Below are positions 1,504 through 7,381 of a stretch of 22,855 nucleotides of DNA, piece by piece. This DNA comes from a virus. The notes under the pieces were generated by a model. The model was not told the origin of the DNA. It made no database searches and saw only the letters and a list, made by a program, of their open reading frames with translations. A program made the translations under genes and the position numbers. Location of the stretch: the IMG/VR virus record IMGVR_UViG_3300025071_000060, positions 1-22,855 of that record. One strand, 5' to 3'. Numbering within the stretch: position 1 is the first letter of the stretch; every line of letters begins with the position of its first letter.

Positions 1504-1618
1504 ATTTTTTTAGTTTACGTTCAGCAATATTTAAGTGAATTTGAGTTAGTTCTAATTCTTCCTTAAGAATTCTAATCTCTTCTCTGAATCTTAAGTGCCA
1601 ATTAATACCTACATCCAT
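1409..1618 (-). CDS. small predicted coiled-coil protein of unknown function
   Basis: This 69-residue ORF starts at an ATG that shares one base with the primase stop codon (TAATG), an arrangement that favours translational coupling. Residues 12-41 carry an alternating charged and hydrophobic pattern (EEIRILKEELELTQIHLNIA) that looks like a short amphipathic helix or coiled coil. From about residue 39 the sequence becomes Asn/Lys/Arg-rich and low in complexity. There its DNA overlaps, out of frame, the 5' end of the helicase gene by 95 bases, including the Walker A codons. That tail is therefore probably constrained by the helicase frame rather than by its own fold. I do not recognise a family. 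It could be a small replication accessory protein or a coupling ORF. Confidence 0.55.
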   Translation of the reverse strand: MDVGINWHLRFREEIRILKEELELTQIHLNIAERKLKKYENNNTGSTRNRKNNNVVKLSGRIYTKRNPT

Positions 1619-3162
1619 TAAAAATCATCCTGTTGATATTCCACTTTAGAAATAGCAGCTTCTATTTTTTTCATGGTTTTAATTTTAACGACTCTAGGTT
1701 GTTGATTTTTTATTCGTAATCTTGTTTCTTCTATAAAAATATCTTCTATATAATCAGCTTCTTTAGTTAATCTTTTAATTAAATTTCCTGTCTTAGTCTT
1801 ATCCATTTCCCAATTATTCTTTTTTAAGAAACTATAAAAATCTTCCATTCTAAAATAAGTAAATTCTCTTTTGTCATCAGTGTAAGGAAGTTTGTTAAAA
1901 ATATCATCCATCGTTCGTGCTGCTTGTCTATTCGTAGTCCAATCTTGTAAGAGTCCTGTTAATTCATTGGTAGGATTTAAAGATTCTAAAGGTTCTACTT
2001 CTTGTAAACTATTCATTAAAGGTTTTAAAAAATGTTCTTTCCAATCTCTAGCTTTAGGAACAGGTACTACTAAGTTAGCTTGGTCCAAACAGGCCAAAGC
2101 AAATAAAGGGGGACTGTATAATTGTTCTGTTTTTAATTCTACTCTAGTTTTATCTACATTTAAAAACCATTGAGGAGGTGCAGAAGTATATTTGGTTAAA
2201 CTTCCAAGTAATGGCATTTCTTCTTCTCCATAACCAACACCAAATCTTTTTGTTCTGCATAAACCTGCTTGGCATACTGCATTAATAGGTGCATCTTTAC
2301 ATCTATATTTGTCATAACCTTTTCTGTTAACTGATTTAATTAATTGCTGAACTTCATTATTACTTAAAGCAGGTTCCATGTATTTAGAATTAGCTTCTAC
2401 AATTTTATCTTCCCAACTATCGGGATGTGATTGTTTATAATAAACTGCAATATTAAATAATGCATTATTCCTAGACCCCTCACCAAAACCAATTGATGCC
2501 AATTTGTTTAAACAAGGGGGACCATTAGGAAAAGCTTCGTCTATTTTTTTCTCTTGGACTTTAATTTTCTCCACCTCTTCGCTTCGAAGAGAAAACTTAT
2601 CATAGAGCTGATAAAATTCCTCAAGTGTACAACCGGAGCCATTATCGTTGATAGCATATCGTAGTCCTTTCATTTGATTGTGGTAAGGTAGATTTAAAAA
2701 ATTACCAGTGTCACCACGTTCCACTAGAATTTCTGTTTGTTTAGGAAAGATTTCTGATCCTTCATATCCTAAAGCTTTAGAAAATTGTTTAAGTTTTGAT
2801 TGCATCACAGCTGCAGAAATATTTTCTTTAGTAAAAAGAAAAACATGTGCTCCGCCAGATTTAGAACGGCAAACGATTAGGGGGAAGTTAAAAGATCGTA
2901 TGCTTTGAATGAGACTAAGGTGATCGAGATCATATTCATCAATATCAATGCAACCCCACCTACAATCATTGCTCTGTGTAATAGGGATGATACCCAATGC
3001 GGGTCCTTTACCTTCAAGGTGGTTTGTCCAGAGGTCGTCGGTGACGCTTTTACGAACAATAAAAGCTTTGCCTTTTTGTTTTCCATTGGTACCACGTTCT
3101 CCGGGTTGATATTGTCCATATGCGATTTCTAGTCCACTAAAAATTTGTTTGAATTTCTTCAT
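1618..3162 (-). CDS. archaeo-eukaryotic-type primase (prim-pol) with C-terminal cysteine cluster
   Basis: This protein is predicted to make primers for phage DNA replication. The N-terminal half matches the AEP (archaeo-eukaryotic primase) fold seen in mobile-element primases: a metal-binding DID motif (D73, D75 within WGCIDIDEYD) and the nucleotide-binding motif SGGAHVFLF (102-110, His106). The stretch around 217-242 (C217, then GFGEGSRNNALFNIAVYYK) resembles a PriCT-type helical domain. C288, C297 and C302 (spacing C-x8-C-x4-C), together with C217, could bind zinc or an iron-sulfur cluster. The rest, about 340-514, is not recognised; residues 405-480 look like a winged-helix or helicase-loader-type tail, with low certainty. 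No Shine-Dalgarno sequence is visible before ATG 3162. The gene follows the hairpin at 3187-3210 and abuts the small coiled-coil ORF. The AEP assignment is firm from motifs; the polymerase ability is not shown. Confidence 0.88.
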   Translation of the reverse strand: MKKFKQIFSGLEIAYGQYQPGERGTNGKQKGKAFIVRKSVTDDLWTNHLEGKGPALGIIPITQSNDCRWGCIDIDEYDLDHLSLIQSIRSFNFPLIVCRSKSGGAHVFLFTKENISAAVMQSKLKQFSKALGYEGSEIFPKQTEILVERGDTGNFLNLPYHNQMKGLRYAINDNGSGCTLEEFYQLYDKFSLRSEEVEKIKVQEKKIDEAFPNGPPCLNKLASIGFGEGSRNNALFNIAVYYKQSHPDSWEDKIVEANSKYMEPALSNNEVQQLIKSVNRKGYDKYRCKDAPINAVCQAGLCRTKRFGVGYGEEEMPLLGSLTKYTSAPPQWFLNVDKTRVELKTEQLYSPPLFALACLDQANLVVPVPKARDWKEHFLKPLMNSLQEVEPLESLNPTNELTGLLQDWTTNRQAARTMDDIFNKLPYTDDKREFTYFRMEDFYSFLKKNNWEMDKTKTGNLIKRLTKEADYIEDIFIEETRLRIKNQQPRVVKIKTMKKIEAAISKVEYQQDDF

Positions 3163-3219: not shown

Positions 3220-3990
3220 TTAGTACGGTGTACTATCTTTAGCTTTCTCTTCCACATCTGCTTTTGTTTGCACGTTTCCTTTAGCAACATTACCTCTAAA
3301 ATCTTTTGCATTGCTGTATAAAGATTTATCAGTTTGTCCTAATATTCGATCCATCGTTACAACCCAACCATACCAAGAACCTTTATCGTTCTTTTGTAGT
3401 GCTGAAGCCAACGTATAGACCACCCCATGCATAGGCGGGATAGCAAATCCACCCTGTCCATCAGGTATTTGTATGGTTTTCATCATTGAATTCCATTTTT
3501 TACTGACGTTCAGCTGCGTAGATTTCATCGTAATCAACGCTGGTGTGTACCCACCATTTTTTGTTTCAACCATAACATAGTAAGAAGCTGTTTCTTCTAA
3601 GTAGTTACCATTTGGTAATCTAATTTTAGAACCATCTCTCTTACCAGTTGCGATTACTGGACTGTTAGGTAGATGAACTGCCACAGGAGCACCAGGGCCG
3701 TCCCCTCTATCCGACCATTCCGGATAATCTTTCTTATAGTAACAAGGAATTACCTTGATACCTTTTTTACCATCGTATAAATCGCTGGTAACAGTATTAT
3801 AGATCATGCCTGGTTTAGCACCTCCTATATACTTCGCATCACCATCAGTTACCTGTGGCGATAGTTGTCCTAAGATTCTGACAAACGGTAACGCAAGGTC
3901 TTCTTGCGTCATGTTTTCAAAACCTTTAGACAGATCGTCGCCAAATAAAGCAACGGATCCTTGTGTCTTAGCTTTTATTTCATTAGCCAT
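3220..3990 (-). CDS. conserved phage protein, putative single-stranded DNA-binding protein
   Basis: This 256-residue protein belongs to a family common in marine and other podoviruses. Recognisable blocks are ENMTQEDLALPFVRILGQLS (about 25-44), the KYIGGAKPGMIYNTVTSDLY region (about 53-72), GIKVIPCYYKKDYPEW (about 77-92), STQLNVSKKW (about 157-166) and a C-terminal SWYGW segment. The core is beta-rich with scattered aromatic residues, and the tail (from about residue 225) is hydrophilic and Lys/Asp-rich. Homologues are often annotated as ssDNA-binding replication proteins, but I know of no experiment that proves this. A strong GGAGG lies 7 bases before ATG 3990, the best ribosome site in the replication block, which fits a protein needed in high amount. 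It sits between the primase gene (downstream, beyond a hairpin) and a second conserved gene. Function is inferred. Confidence 0.75.
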   Translation of the reverse strand: MANEIKAKTQGSVALFGDDLSKGFENMTQEDLALPFVRILGQLSPQVTDGDAKYIGGAKPGMIYNTVTSDLYDGKKGIKVIPCYYKKDYPEWSDRGDGPGAPVAVHLPNSPVIATGKRDGSKIRLPNGNYLEETASYYVMVETKNGGYTPALITMKSTQLNVSKKWNSMMKTIQIPDGQGGFAIPPMHGVVYTLASALQKNDKGSWYGWVVTMDRILGQTDKSLYSNAKDFRGNVAKGNVQTKADVEEKAKDSTPY

Positions 3991-4003
3991 TATTTTTCCT
4001 CCA

Positions 4004-4618
4004 TTATTTTTTCCGGCTTATTTTAGTTTTATCTTTAATCCAAAGACTAAAGCTTTCAGAAGGCATGTCCAAACCGGCTTGAACACGCTCCTGGTATAGA
4101 GCAGTTAATGTATTCCATGCCACATCAGATTTCTGCTGTGGTTGAAAACCATTTTCTGCTGCAAGGTTAAGCAATTGCTCAGCCTTGTCATCTTCTCCTT
4201 TACCAAAAGATACAGTTACATTATTTTTAATAATATCACCCAATCCTTGGTCACGAAGCCATTGTAAACAACTTTCTCTTCTTGCTTCATCTTTAGGAAT
4301 AGTTGCTCTAAACTCTTTTTTAACTGAAACAGTTGAACCATCTGACATTTTAATTGAGGTCAAAGCCTGTTCTGCTAATAATTCTGGGATAACTCTGGAT
4401 CCCACATCATCTGCTTTCAGTTTTAAATCTTTTAAGTTTTCTTCTGCTGCTTCTATTTTATCTTCTAAAGCTTTCAACTTTTGACATTCAGCTGCAATCG
4501 TTGTTACTTCAACAGAATCTAAAAGGTCTTTAGAATCTTTCAACATTTCATCTCGAACATTAAAAGAATTCTTACTACTTTCATTTCTTATAACTATTTT
4601 TTCACTACCCTTATCCAT
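4004..4618 (-). CDS. conserved phage replication-region protein of unknown function
   Basis: This 204-residue protein has an N-terminal coiled coil (about residues 45-72, LKALEDKIEAAEENLKDLKL), then a small domain with ELLAEQALTSIKMSDGSTVS (about 79-98), RRESCLQWLRDQGLGDIIKN (about 113-132) and a C-terminal helix region with SDVAWNTLTALYQERVQAGL (about 164-183). I recognise this as a family that recurs beside putative ssDNA-binding genes in marine podoviruses, with no established function. The two genes are 13 bases apart and the next Shine-Dalgarno sequence follows the stop codon directly, so they are probably made together. A scaffold or adaptor role in replication is a guess. Start ATG 4618 lies two bases after the preceding TAG stop, with AAAGGG just upstream. 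Confidence 0.7.
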   Translation of the reverse strand: MDKGSEKIVIRNESSKNSFNVRDEMLKDSKDLLDSVEVTTIAAECQKLKALEDKIEAAEENLKDLKLKADDVGSRVIPELLAEQALTSIKMSDGSTVSVKKEFRATIPKDEARRESCLQWLRDQGLGDIIKNNVTVSFGKGEDDKAEQLLNLAAENGFQPQQKSDVAWNTLTALYQERVQAGLDMPSESFSLWIKDKTKISRKK

Positions 4619-4621
4619 CTT

Positions 4622-5020
4622 CTACCCTTTCATATATATATCAAATTCAAGAGAGTAATATCTTTTTTGATCTCTCTCCCACTTTAAAACGTTGAATTTG
4701 CCATTTGTGGCGTCATTAATTGCAATGCAAGAAATACCAATAATAACGGGATCCCCTACAGCTAACAAATAATCCTGTGGTCTAAAGTCTTGTAAGTTTT
4801 TTTTCATCTTATGTACATAAGGTGAAGTTGAATATATAGCTTGTTCAAATTGCGGCAAGCATATTACAAGATAGCCATAATCTGATGCACTTAATATATT
4901 AATATTAGGACCAGGTTGTTGGACTACATAGACAAATTTTTCTTTAGGATTATCTTTATAAAAGATTTTAAATTCCTCTAAAGAATTTGGTTTATACAAC
5001 TCAAAAATTTTATTTTTCAT
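4622..5020 (-). CDS. conserved hypothetical phage protein, first gene of the leftward replication unit
   Basis: This is a 132-residue protein of a family widespread in phages but without known function. Typical segments are EKFVYVVQQPGPNINILSAS (about 27-46), DYLLAVGDPVIIGISCIAIN (about 83-102, the signature: a GDP-x-x-I-G turn) and FNVLKWERDQKRYYSLEFDI (about 109-128). The fold looks beta-rich and small. It is the first gene after the divergent control region, with a predicted leader of only about 15-30 bases, and it abuts the 204-residue gene by a one-base gap. Its place suggests early expression with the replication genes. No catalytic motif is visible. Confidence 0.7.
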   Translation of the reverse strand: MKNKIFELYKPNSLEEFKIFYKDNPKEKFVYVVQQPGPNINILSASDYGYLVICLPQFEQAIYSTSPYVHKMKKNLQDFRPQDYLLAVGDPVIIGISCIAINDATNGKFNVLKWERDQKRYYSLEFDIYMKG

Positions 5021-5064: not shown

Positions 5065-5072
5065 GATGTCAA
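5045..5072 (-). promoter_or_regulatory. probable leftward sigma-70-type promoter for the replication genes
   Basis: On the minus strand a perfect -35 element TTGACA (5072-5067) is followed after 16 bases by TATCTT (5050-5045, four of six matches to the -10 consensus). Transcription would start near 5038, about 17 bases before ATG 5020. A perfect TATAAT also lies on this strand at 5062-5057 and could serve instead, with a weak -35, starting near 5050. Either choice overlaps the rightward promoter completely. Confidence 0.55.
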
Positions 5073-5089
5073 TAGAAATAAAAATTATT

Positions 5090-6523
5090 ATGAATTACAA
5101 ATTTAAAACAAAGCCTTATGCACATCAATTGGTGGCATTAGAAAAATCATGGAATAAAGATGAGTATGGTTATTTCATGGAGATGGGTACTGGTAAATCA
5201 AAAGTGTTAGTTGATAATATAGCTATGCTTTATGATAAAGGTAAAATTAATGGGGCTCTTATTATAGCACCTAAAGGAGTTTATAGAACTTGGTTGGACC
5301 AAGAAATACCACAACATTTAGCTAGTCACATACAACCTACAGTGGTACTATGGACTGCTTCAACATCAAAAACAAAGGACAAAGAGTATCAATTATTATT
5401 TAAAACTGGACATGACCTTCACATCCTTATTATGAATGTTGAGGCATTAAGTACTAAAAAAGGATTAGATTTTGCTGGTAAATTTATGCGCTGCCATAAA
5501 ACAATGCTTGCTGTAGATGAGTCTACTACTATTAAAAATCAAAACGCAAAACGTACTAAGTCTATTTTACAATTAGGTAAGCAGGCTGAATATAGAAGAA
5601 TTCTTACTGGATCTCCTGTTACTAAATCACCTTTAGATCTATATACTCAATGTGCTTTTTTAAATGAATTTCTTCTAGGCTTTACTTCTTTTTATACGTT
5701 TAGAAATAGATACGCTAATATGATTGACAGAAATTTTGGAGGTAGAAGAGTTCAGCTTATTGGAAGTTATAAACGTTTAGATGAATTAGCAGAAAATTTA
5801 AAAAAGTTTTCTTATCGTGTTTTAAAAGAAGATTGTTTAGATTTACCTCCTAAAGTGTATACACGTAGAGAAGTTGATTTAACAGAAGAGCAAACTAAAG
5901 CTTATACTACTATGAAATCCGCGGCCCTCGCTCTACTGAGAGGTAAAATGGCTACTGCGCCTCATGTTTTAACTCAAATGATGCGACTTCATCAAATTAC
6001 TTGTGGTCATTTAAAAAATGATGATGGCACAATTACAGAACTTAAAAATAATAGACTTAAAGAACTTTTAAATTTATTAGATGAAGTAGAAGGTAAAGTT
6101 ATTATTTGGGCTAATTATATTTATGACATTAAACATATTATAAAAATCCTTAAAGAAGAGTATGGGGAAGAATCTATTGTTCAGTATTATGGTGCCACTT
6201 CTTCTGATGATAGAGCTAAAGCAATTAAAGATTTTCAAGATCCTAAATCTAAAGTTAGATTTTTTGTAGGTAATCCTCAGACAGCAGGTTATGGTATTAC
6301 TTTAACTGCAGCCCAGACCGTGGTTTATTATTCTAATGGATATGATTTAGAAAAAAGACTACAGTCAGAAGACAGAGCACACAGAATAGGTCAAAAGAAT
6401 TCGGTAACATATGTAGACCTTATAGCATCTAAAACAGTAGATGAAAAGATAGTAAAAGCGTTACGTAAAAAAATGAATATTGCTAATACGATTATGGATG
6501 AAGATTGGCGAGAGTGGATTTAA
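5090..6523 (+). CDS. SNF2/DEAD-like superfamily 2 helicase, the only plus-strand gene
   Basis: This is an ATP-driven DNA translocase or helicase of the SNF2-like group. Numbered from the upstream ATG at 5066 (485 residues), the motifs are: Q-like region with YAHQLVALEKSW (18-29), motif I MGTGKSK (40-46), motif II DEST (151-154), motif III LTGSPV (180-185) and motif VI QSEDRAHRIGQ (433-443). The last is the hallmark of SNF2-type proteins. Both RecA-like lobes are complete, and no extra nuclease or DNA-binding domain is visible. I prefer ATG 5090 (477 residues, beginning MNYKFKTKPY) because the likely promoter's -10 overlaps ATG 5066. The helicase lobes are unaffected, and neither start has a good Shine-Dalgarno sequence. 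Such proteins are common in marine phage replication regions and may support replication, recombination or transcription. Its opposite orientation, with its own promoter, suggests separate timing. Confidence 0.9.
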   Translation: MNYKFKTKPYAHQLVALEKSWNKDEYGYFMEMGTGKSKVLVDNIAMLYDKGKINGALIIAPKGVYRTWLDQEIPQHLASHIQPTVVLWTASTSKTKDKEYQLLFKTGHDLHILIMNVEALSTKKGLDFAGKFMRCHKTMLAVDESTTIKNQNAKRTKSILQLGKQAEYRRILTGSPVTKSPLDLYTQCAFLNEFLLGFTSFYTFRNRYANMIDRNFGGRRVQLIGSYKRLDELAENLKKFSYRVLKEDCLDLPPKVYTRREVDLTEEQTKAYTTMKSAALALLRGKMATAPHVLTQMMRLHQITCGHLKNDDGTITELKNNRLKELLNLLDEVEGKVIIWANYIYDIKHIIKILKEEYGEESIVQYYGATSSDDRAKAIKDFQDPKSKVRFFVGNPQTAGYGITLTAAQTVVYYSNGYDLEKRLQSEDRAHRIGQKNSVTYVDLIASKTVDEKIVKALRKKMNIANTIMDEDWREWI

Positions 6524-6897
6524 ATATCCTGGAGTCCCGTTTCTCTATTTAAATATTTATATTCTATCTTAGTAATATTAAAATCATCGGTAATTTTTTT
6601 ACAAATATCAGTATGATTAAAATCTCCACACGAATACACATCAAATTGAATTAAAGCAGGGCTAGGCTCATCCCAAACATGCATAACAATGTGTGAAGTT
6701 TCAATAACGGCAATCCCTGTAATTCCGCGATTACCCTCCATAGAGCAGTATTTGACATAAGGACCCATCATTACTTTCATATTGATAGAGTCTATAAATT
6801 CTTTTAACCATTCTGTTAGCTGTTCTTCATCCGTTGGAGGTTTTACAGCTTCTGCTCTTATGATTAAATGTTTGTGTACTAATAAGCTATTTAACAT
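6520..6897 (-). CDS. speD: S-adenosylmethionine decarboxylase-like protein (SpeD homologue), auxiliary metabolic gene
   Basis: SpeD makes decarboxylated S-adenosylmethionine for spermidine synthesis, using a pyruvoyl group formed by self-cleavage before a serine. This 125-residue ORF is full length for the small bacterial class. Visible landmarks: N-terminal HKHLIIRAEA (8-17), NRGITGIAVI (56-65), the processing region with S68 and H69, proton donor H73 and C90 in DVYSCG. The serine, histidine and cysteine match those essential in Thermotoga SpeD. The residue before the serine is Thr67, where the family normally has Glu (AESH or SESH). Some SpeD relatives have been shown to act on ornithine or arginine instead, so the substrate is uncertain. 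It is the last gene after the lysis genes, overlaps the peptidase gene by 11 bases, and ends tail to tail with the SNF2 gene. Cyanophages are known to carry speD, so a host-polyamine role is reasonable. Confidence 0.85.
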   Translation of the reverse strand: MLNSLLVHKHLIIRAEAVKPPTDEEQLTEWLKEFIDSINMKVMMGPYVKYCSMEGNRGITGIAVIETSHIVMHVWDEPSPALIQFDVYSCGDFNHTDICKKITDDFNITKIEYKYLNRETGLQDI

Positions 6898-7381
6898 AAC
6901 GGTCCGTGCTCAAACCTAAGATAGGTTTATATTGAGTTTTTCCGTCTTCATTTTTCATAGCCATTAAATATTCTTTTCTATTCATATTGATGTCCTTTGT
7001 ATAACTTACATGGATCCAGCCTGAATTTGGATTTCCAGGTTTATAATACTCAAGAATCAATTGGTCAAACATTAAATTTTCTTTGATCCAGTCGCTGACT
7101 TTATTATTATCAACTCCAAAGATTTCAAAGTCACAAGCTTGGCCTTTACAGTGCTGGGATTTTCTACTACTACCGATTTTTTCGCTTAAAATTTCATTAC
7201 GAAATCCACTAGACACAGTTACAATATCGTCGAAATGATCTCTTATAGGCTGTAGCACACGCTCACACAATAGCCTTAAATTTTCTGTCTCATCTTCAGA
7301 AGGGTTGTTATCCATACCCATACGTTCCGCGGTCTGCGATTTGGTTAACTCCGCAAGATAAAAGTTTTTACTAAGCTTCAC
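6887..7381 (-). CDS. M15-family peptidoglycan peptidase, probable endolysin
   Basis: This 164-residue zinc peptidase of the M15A type (D-Ala-D-Ala carboxypeptidase or L,D-endopeptidase-like) is expected to cut cell-wall peptide cross-bridges at lysis. Key features: VSSGFRN (56-62), zinc-binding H77 and D84 in SQHCKGQACDFE (75-86), probable catalytic E111, and third zinc ligand H124 in WIHVSY (122-127). No signal peptide or cell-wall-binding domain is seen, so it needs a holin to reach the wall. The start is GTG at 7381, supported by an AGGAGGG located 7 bases upstream. It overlaps the end of the small exported-protein gene by 11 bases. The holin-like gene two positions upstream makes this a lysis cassette. 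The family call is strong; the exact bond cleaved cannot be read from sequence. Confidence 0.9.
   Translation of the reverse strand: MKLSKNFYLAELTKSQTAERMGMDNNPSEDETENLRLLCERVLQPIRDHFDDIVTVSSGFRNEILSEKIGSSRKSQHCKGQACDFEIFGVDNNKVSDWIKENLMFDQLILEYYKPGNPNSGWIHVSYTKDINMNRKEYLMAMKNEDGKTQYKPILGLSTDRYVK

Follow-up and report, generated by a model that had tools for sequence, protein, structure and literature searches.

The window analysed here is a stretch of viral DNA of 22,855 nucleotides, positions 1 to 22,855 of IMG/VR record IMGVR_UViG_3300025071_000060. Its speD-type gene begins with ATG and lies between genes for an M15 endolysin and a helicase (Table 1), an arrangement shared with most viral relatives. 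The 3′ end of the endolysin gene overlaps the start of speD by 11 nt, and the helicase gene is convergent with speD, with overlapping stops. Among 80 related viral loci, the endolysin was found near speD in 61 and the helicase in 60, the rest often being cut by contig ends. speD occupies one place across relatives and is thus a cargo gene fixed in a related phage lineage. No polyamine genes besides speD were detected in the flanks of the viral loci (up to about 6 kb), where weak matches to "canonical SpeD" proved to be the speD-type gene itself, here called the ETSH gene after its Glu-Thr-Ser-His junction. The nearest matches to the window's structural proteins are in phage 023Pt_psg01 and in Pelagibacter phages HTVC027P and HTVC023P, a phage relationship that is what points to a SAR11 host. 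In these three phages the late genes reach the convergent helicase and speD is absent at that place; the main text of a survey of HTVC023P-type genomes mentions neither speD nor polyamines (PMC9599517). Elsewhere in the window, three consecutive genes (3220-5020) match Pam3 phage gp32, gp33, and gp34-like families, and an AEP-TOTE/PriCT primase is encoded beside them (1618-3162).

Table 1. Features of the speD-type locus in the window
Feature	Position	Strand	Evidence
SpeD-family pyruvoyl-dependent decarboxylase proenzyme, predicted arginine decarboxylase, 125 aa	6520..6897	-	ORF, PF02675, phrog_3125, AlphaFold2
Thr67 (6697-6699) / Ser68 (6694-6696), predicted self-cleavage junction	6694..6699	-	codons ACT TCA
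Asp76, at conserved-Pro site of bona fide AdoMetDCs (HVWDE vs HTWPE)	6670..6672	-	reading frame
Cys90, counterpart of T. maritima catalytic Cys83	6628..6630	-	alignment; invariant in relatives
Peptidase M15 endolysin	6887..7381	-	PF08291, phrog_894
SNF2-type DNA helicase	5066..6523	+	PF00176/PF00271, phrog_62

The encoded protein is a real member of the AdoMet_dc family (PF02675; 61.9 bits, cutoff 25) and falls in PHROG family phrog_3125. Codons 66 to 69 (GAA ACT TCA CAC) specify E66-T67-S68-H69, and alignment with the AdoMetDC of T. maritima pairs S68, H73, and C90 with S63, H68, and C83 of that enzyme, the latter two being catalytic, with the processing and catalytic set kept. Codons and alignment thus confirmed an earlier note on this DNA, which had reported Thr67 before Ser68 and retention of Ser68, His69, His73, and Cys90. 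The four retained residues were invariant across the aligned relatives, as was the Thr67/Ser68 pair in an alignment of 52 of them. The same note had described Glu as replaced by Thr, which is correct for Thr67 but not for the Glu: compared with the canonical x-E-S-H junction, it has moved one residue upstream rather than simply being lost, and E66 is nearly invariant among relatives. The protein scored 52.7 bits against the AdoMetDC equivalog TIGR03330, under the curated cutoff of 75.65, as did every other ETSH protein tested. According to one study, a Pro is completely conserved in true AdoMetDCs and not conserved in arginine decarboxylases (PMC10407285); if this is the Pro of HTWPE, the window protein has Asp76 in its place.

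An AlphaFold2 model, generated from 52 aligned proteins of the window and the related loci, had a mean pLDDT of 92.4. Its best solved match was to chains of the T. maritima AdoMetDC (1VR7; E 1.3e-6, TM-score about 0.7), followed by the potato and human AdoMetDCs, so the predicted structure indicates an AdoMetDC fold of class 1b. In the model, the Thr67-Ser68 junction falls between strands 58-65 and 68-75. The T. maritima enzyme (1TLU, 1VR7) shares this fold and the Ser/His/Cys catalytic set, whereas it has a Glu-Ser junction and HTWPE where the window protein has Thr-Ser and HVWDE.

Relatives were drawn from an IMG/VR scan for proteins related to the window SpeD (best 80 of 379), a second scan yielding 46 HTVC201P-type relatives, a profile scan (best 80 of at least 586), and bacterial and archaeal genomes, in which 45 cellular loci were detected. 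Thr preceded Ser in all 249 scored loci of these sets, so the tree and position-67 scoring proposed in the earlier note gave the same residue throughout the branch. All four Thr codons (ACA, ACC, ACG, and ACT) were used at this site. In nearly all Thr-type relatives the residue after Trp was Asp, or rarely Glu, in place of the Pro of canonical HTWPE. Thr and Asp together form a conserved signature rather than a chance change. A sequencing error at codon 67, which the earlier note had named as a possible explanation, was rejected, as the change from ACT to GAA or GAG takes three bases, excluding a single error, and Thr is present in all relatives. Its proposal that Thr marks a phage subgroup held for the subgroup but not for phages as such: the ETSH branch includes genomes of marine gamma-, alpha-, and deltaproteobacteria, and these cellular homologues led us to reject a phage-only marker. 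Pairwise dN/dS in the window clade was about 0.01-0.2 for usable pairs, which are close homologues only, indicating that the window speD is under purifying selection.

Earlier work explains much of this oddity, which is itself real; the Thr signature of AdoMetDC-derived amino acid decarboxylases of phages and bacteria was already known. When tested in E. coli, the AdoMetDC homologue of pelagiphage HTVC201P did not act as an AdoMetDC. It did decarboxylate L-arginine (kcat/Km 290 per M per s), whereas ornithine and lysine were not substrates (PMC9992855). This protein (AXH71538, taken from the genome record) carries the motif IETSH..H.WDE (IETSHIAFHSWDE; in a longer stretch, LQAIETSHIAFHSWDED). 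Because this ETSH enzyme is active, Thr-Ser processing allows pyruvoyl formation and goes with a change of substrate. The suspicion voiced in the earlier note that decarboxylated SAM is not the product is thus strengthened, while its suggestion of altered processing is not, since Thr seems to be no block in an active pyruvoyl-dependent arginine decarboxylase (PMC9992855). A proven SAM decarboxylase with Thr, a counterexample that the note had envisaged, was not among four phage AdoMetDCs reported as functional in the same study and compared here, in which the residue before Ser is Glu in S-PM2, P2559S, and phiYS40 and Asp in phiN3.

The window protein carries the signature of the HTVC201P-type arginine decarboxylase SpeDA (ETSH and no Pro after Trp). 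The two proteins share ETSH, WDE for WPE, Q-x-D-V-Y-x-C, a length of about 122-125 aa, and a marine pelagiphage origin, at an identity of about 40% (39% to L086, which is nearly identical to the HTVC201P protein). They differ at positions -5 and +4, with Gln and Phe in HTVC201P and Ala and Met in the window, and in context: in the Pelagivirus HTVC201P, speD is flanked by exonuclease and ribonucleotide reductase genes, in the window phage by those for endolysin and helicase. The SpeD homologues of HTVC115P and HTVC103P, phages of HTCC7211, likewise have ETSH and WDE (45-48% identity) but belong to another phage lineage with another gene neighbourhood. In HTVC109P (MH598805; L134:4001-4375), the annotated SpeD start is too far downstream, the homologous frame beginning about 110 bases earlier. 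Microcystis phage MaAM05 (MW495066; L137:1477-4255) encodes a canonical SpeD in tandem with a Pro-less SpeD homologue (AESHITFHSFID), followed by SpeE and agmatinase, so that a single phage may encode the full path from arginine to spermidine.

In a SpeD tree, built from 125 columns only and weak at its deep forks, the window clade was sister to cellular proteins (support 97/90) from a deltaproteobacterial lineage (L173) and two marine alphaproteobacteria (L164, L179). HTVC201P was not sister to the window clade; both lie within an ETSH assemblage whose base is weakly supported (85/50). The marine deltaproteobacterial MAG (L173:3998-5748) encodes consecutively an ETSH-type SpeD, a canonical ESH SpeD that passes the TIGR03330 cutoff with 129.2 bits, and the spermidine synthase SpeE. 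The trio resembles a compact gene cluster for polyamines in which the two SpeD paralogues differ in function. Two short MAG contigs assigned to Thermoplasmatales (L169) and to a gammaproteobacterium (L170) encode SpeD proteins 63-70% identical to that of the window and probably come from phages, having been wrongly binned with cellular genomes.

Agmatine-using enzymes recur in the genomes of these cellular relatives. Agmatine deiminase (AguA) and N-carbamoylputrescine amidase (AguB) were found in genomes related to the delta lineage, and their genes adjoin in the two alphaproteobacteria, where spermidine synthase was not detected in the draft genomes. Ten gammaproteobacteria with genomes of about 1 Mb have the ETSH gene head-to-head with spermidine synthase, in addition to a divergent SpeD of class 1a. 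An AguA-AguB-like pair of neighbouring genes occurs in eight of them, and the AguA of this group scored 69.6, far below the curated cutoff of 381.8. Thioglobus-type genomes have an agmatinase (above cutoff where checked), and neither a strong spermidine synthase match nor a canonical SpeD was found in these drafts. A search for OKR decarboxylase in the cellular ETSH groups returned weak partial matches only. In six ETSH genomes, those PF02784 proteins that were checked were diaminopimelate decarboxylase, LysA, above cutoff. A further genome, G008, has another PLP decarboxylase and was left out of the support. With no other arginine or ornithine decarboxylase detected, the ETSH protein is the one candidate source of agmatine visible in these genomes, although the absence of others is soft given their draft state. 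Most control genomes carry PF00491 or PF04371, the agmatinase and deiminase families, so either alone is uninformative, and weight was placed on adjacent AguA-AguB pairs together with the absence of other decarboxylases. On this basis, the gene content of the cellular relatives favours arginine as the substrate, a conclusion that would extend to the phage protein through homology (about 45-55% identity).

These data bear unequally on what else the protein might be. It is extremely improbable that it is unprocessed, catalytically dead, or a structural relic. The unusual residue by itself might suggest this, but the invariant Ser68, His69, His73, and Cys90, the purifying selection, the retention of the gene at one position across many phages, and the processing and activity of the HTVC201P ETSH protein (PMC9992855) all argue otherwise, and a dead enzyme was rejected as unlikely. 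We also regard it as very unlikely that the protein still decarboxylates SAM, with Thr as a change of no consequence. The fold and catalytic residues are kept, the reportedly functional AdoMetDC of Sinorhizobium phage phiN3 itself departs from Glu at -1 (Asp), and ten cellular relatives adjoin spermidine synthase. However, where spermidine synthase lies beside the ETSH gene, the genome encodes another SpeD, and Thioglobus-type genomes carry the ETSH gene without a strong spermidine synthase match. The Pro conserved in true AdoMetDCs (PMC10407285) has been lost, and AdoMetDC activity is missing from the HTVC201P protein, which shares the motif (PMC9992855).

Ornithine is a more serious candidate, if still an unlikely one: the protein could be a pyruvoyl-dependent ornithine decarboxylase of the SpeDC type, with putrescine as its direct product. 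SpeDC enzymes of bacteria, archaea, and freshwater phages likewise have Thr before the processed Ser and have lost AdoMetDC features, and in PMC10407285 Thr is one of four ornithine-specific diagnostic residues (Gln, Thr, Phe, and Tyr) and HTVC201P falls inside the SpeDC clade of the published tree. We took this Thr to be the residue before Ser, and the conserved Pro to be that of HTWPE; both placements are our own. Five other phage homologues, described as HTVC201P-like, are ornithine decarboxylases (PMC9992855). The Gln, Phe, and Tyr companions are, however, apparently absent from the window protein at their presumed positions, with Ala63 and Met72 at the Gln (-5) and Phe (+4) places as set from the HTVC201P and L185 sequences. 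In addition, the nearest cellular sister lineages point to agmatine use, for which an ornithine decarboxylase has no need. A search for SpeDC references through L185, a divergent TSH protein, returned two distant viral relatives only and no named SpeDC phage, and a freshwater query of the phage collection recovered no assayed freshwater ornithine decarboxylase phage, so the tree does not by itself distinguish the arginine from the ornithine type.

Several points also weigh against arginine. By sequence comparison, identity to L086 is 39% and HTVC201P does not group as sister to the window clade. The HTVC201P-like phage ornithine decarboxylases (PMC9992855) and the ornithine-diagnostic Thr count on the same side, as do the low AguA score in the ~1-Mb gammaproteobacteria and the general commonness of agmatinase and deiminase families.

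Taken together, the protein is probably a self-cleaving proenzyme of the class 1b AdoMetDC fold that has lost activity on SAM and instead acts as an amino acid decarboxylase, with L-arginine as the most likely substrate. The best reading of the window is a phage related to HTVC023P and HTVC027P that carries a SpeDA-like pyruvoyl-dependent arginine decarboxylase, for which self-cleavage and arginine specificity are what we infer by analogy. The proenzyme would cut itself between Thr67 and Ser68, with Ser68 giving rise to the N-terminal pyruvoyl group of the alpha chain, and the enzyme would convert L-arginine to agmatine, as in HTVC201P. In an infected SAR11-type host, agmatine may then feed the host agmatinase or related enzymes, and its use by the host could raise putrescine and homospermidine. 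What is new here is the support for arginine from cellular relatives that have an agmatine-to-putrescine route.

A further proposal, which we consider doubtful, is that the window clade represents an arginine decarboxylase lineage that was acquired separately and became fixed in an abundant group of marine phages. Its agmatine could enter an agmatine-coupling (caldomycin-type) homospermidine route in the host instead of supplying free putrescine. The proposal draws on Ala63 and Met72 flanking the cleavage site and on the window clade being nearest to cellular proteins and not to the HTVC201P type.

More broadly, "S-adenosylmethionine decarboxylase" is probably a misannotation throughout this phage clade and in the ETSH/WDE proteins of marine bacteria. 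Such proteins can be flagged by two residues, Thr before the processed Ser and Asp replacing Pro after Trp, and the bacterial lineages named here are ones in which the assignment is open to genetics. The lineage related to HTVC023P and HTVC027P would thereby join the pelagiphages that apparently boost polyamines via arginine or ornithine and not via SAM.
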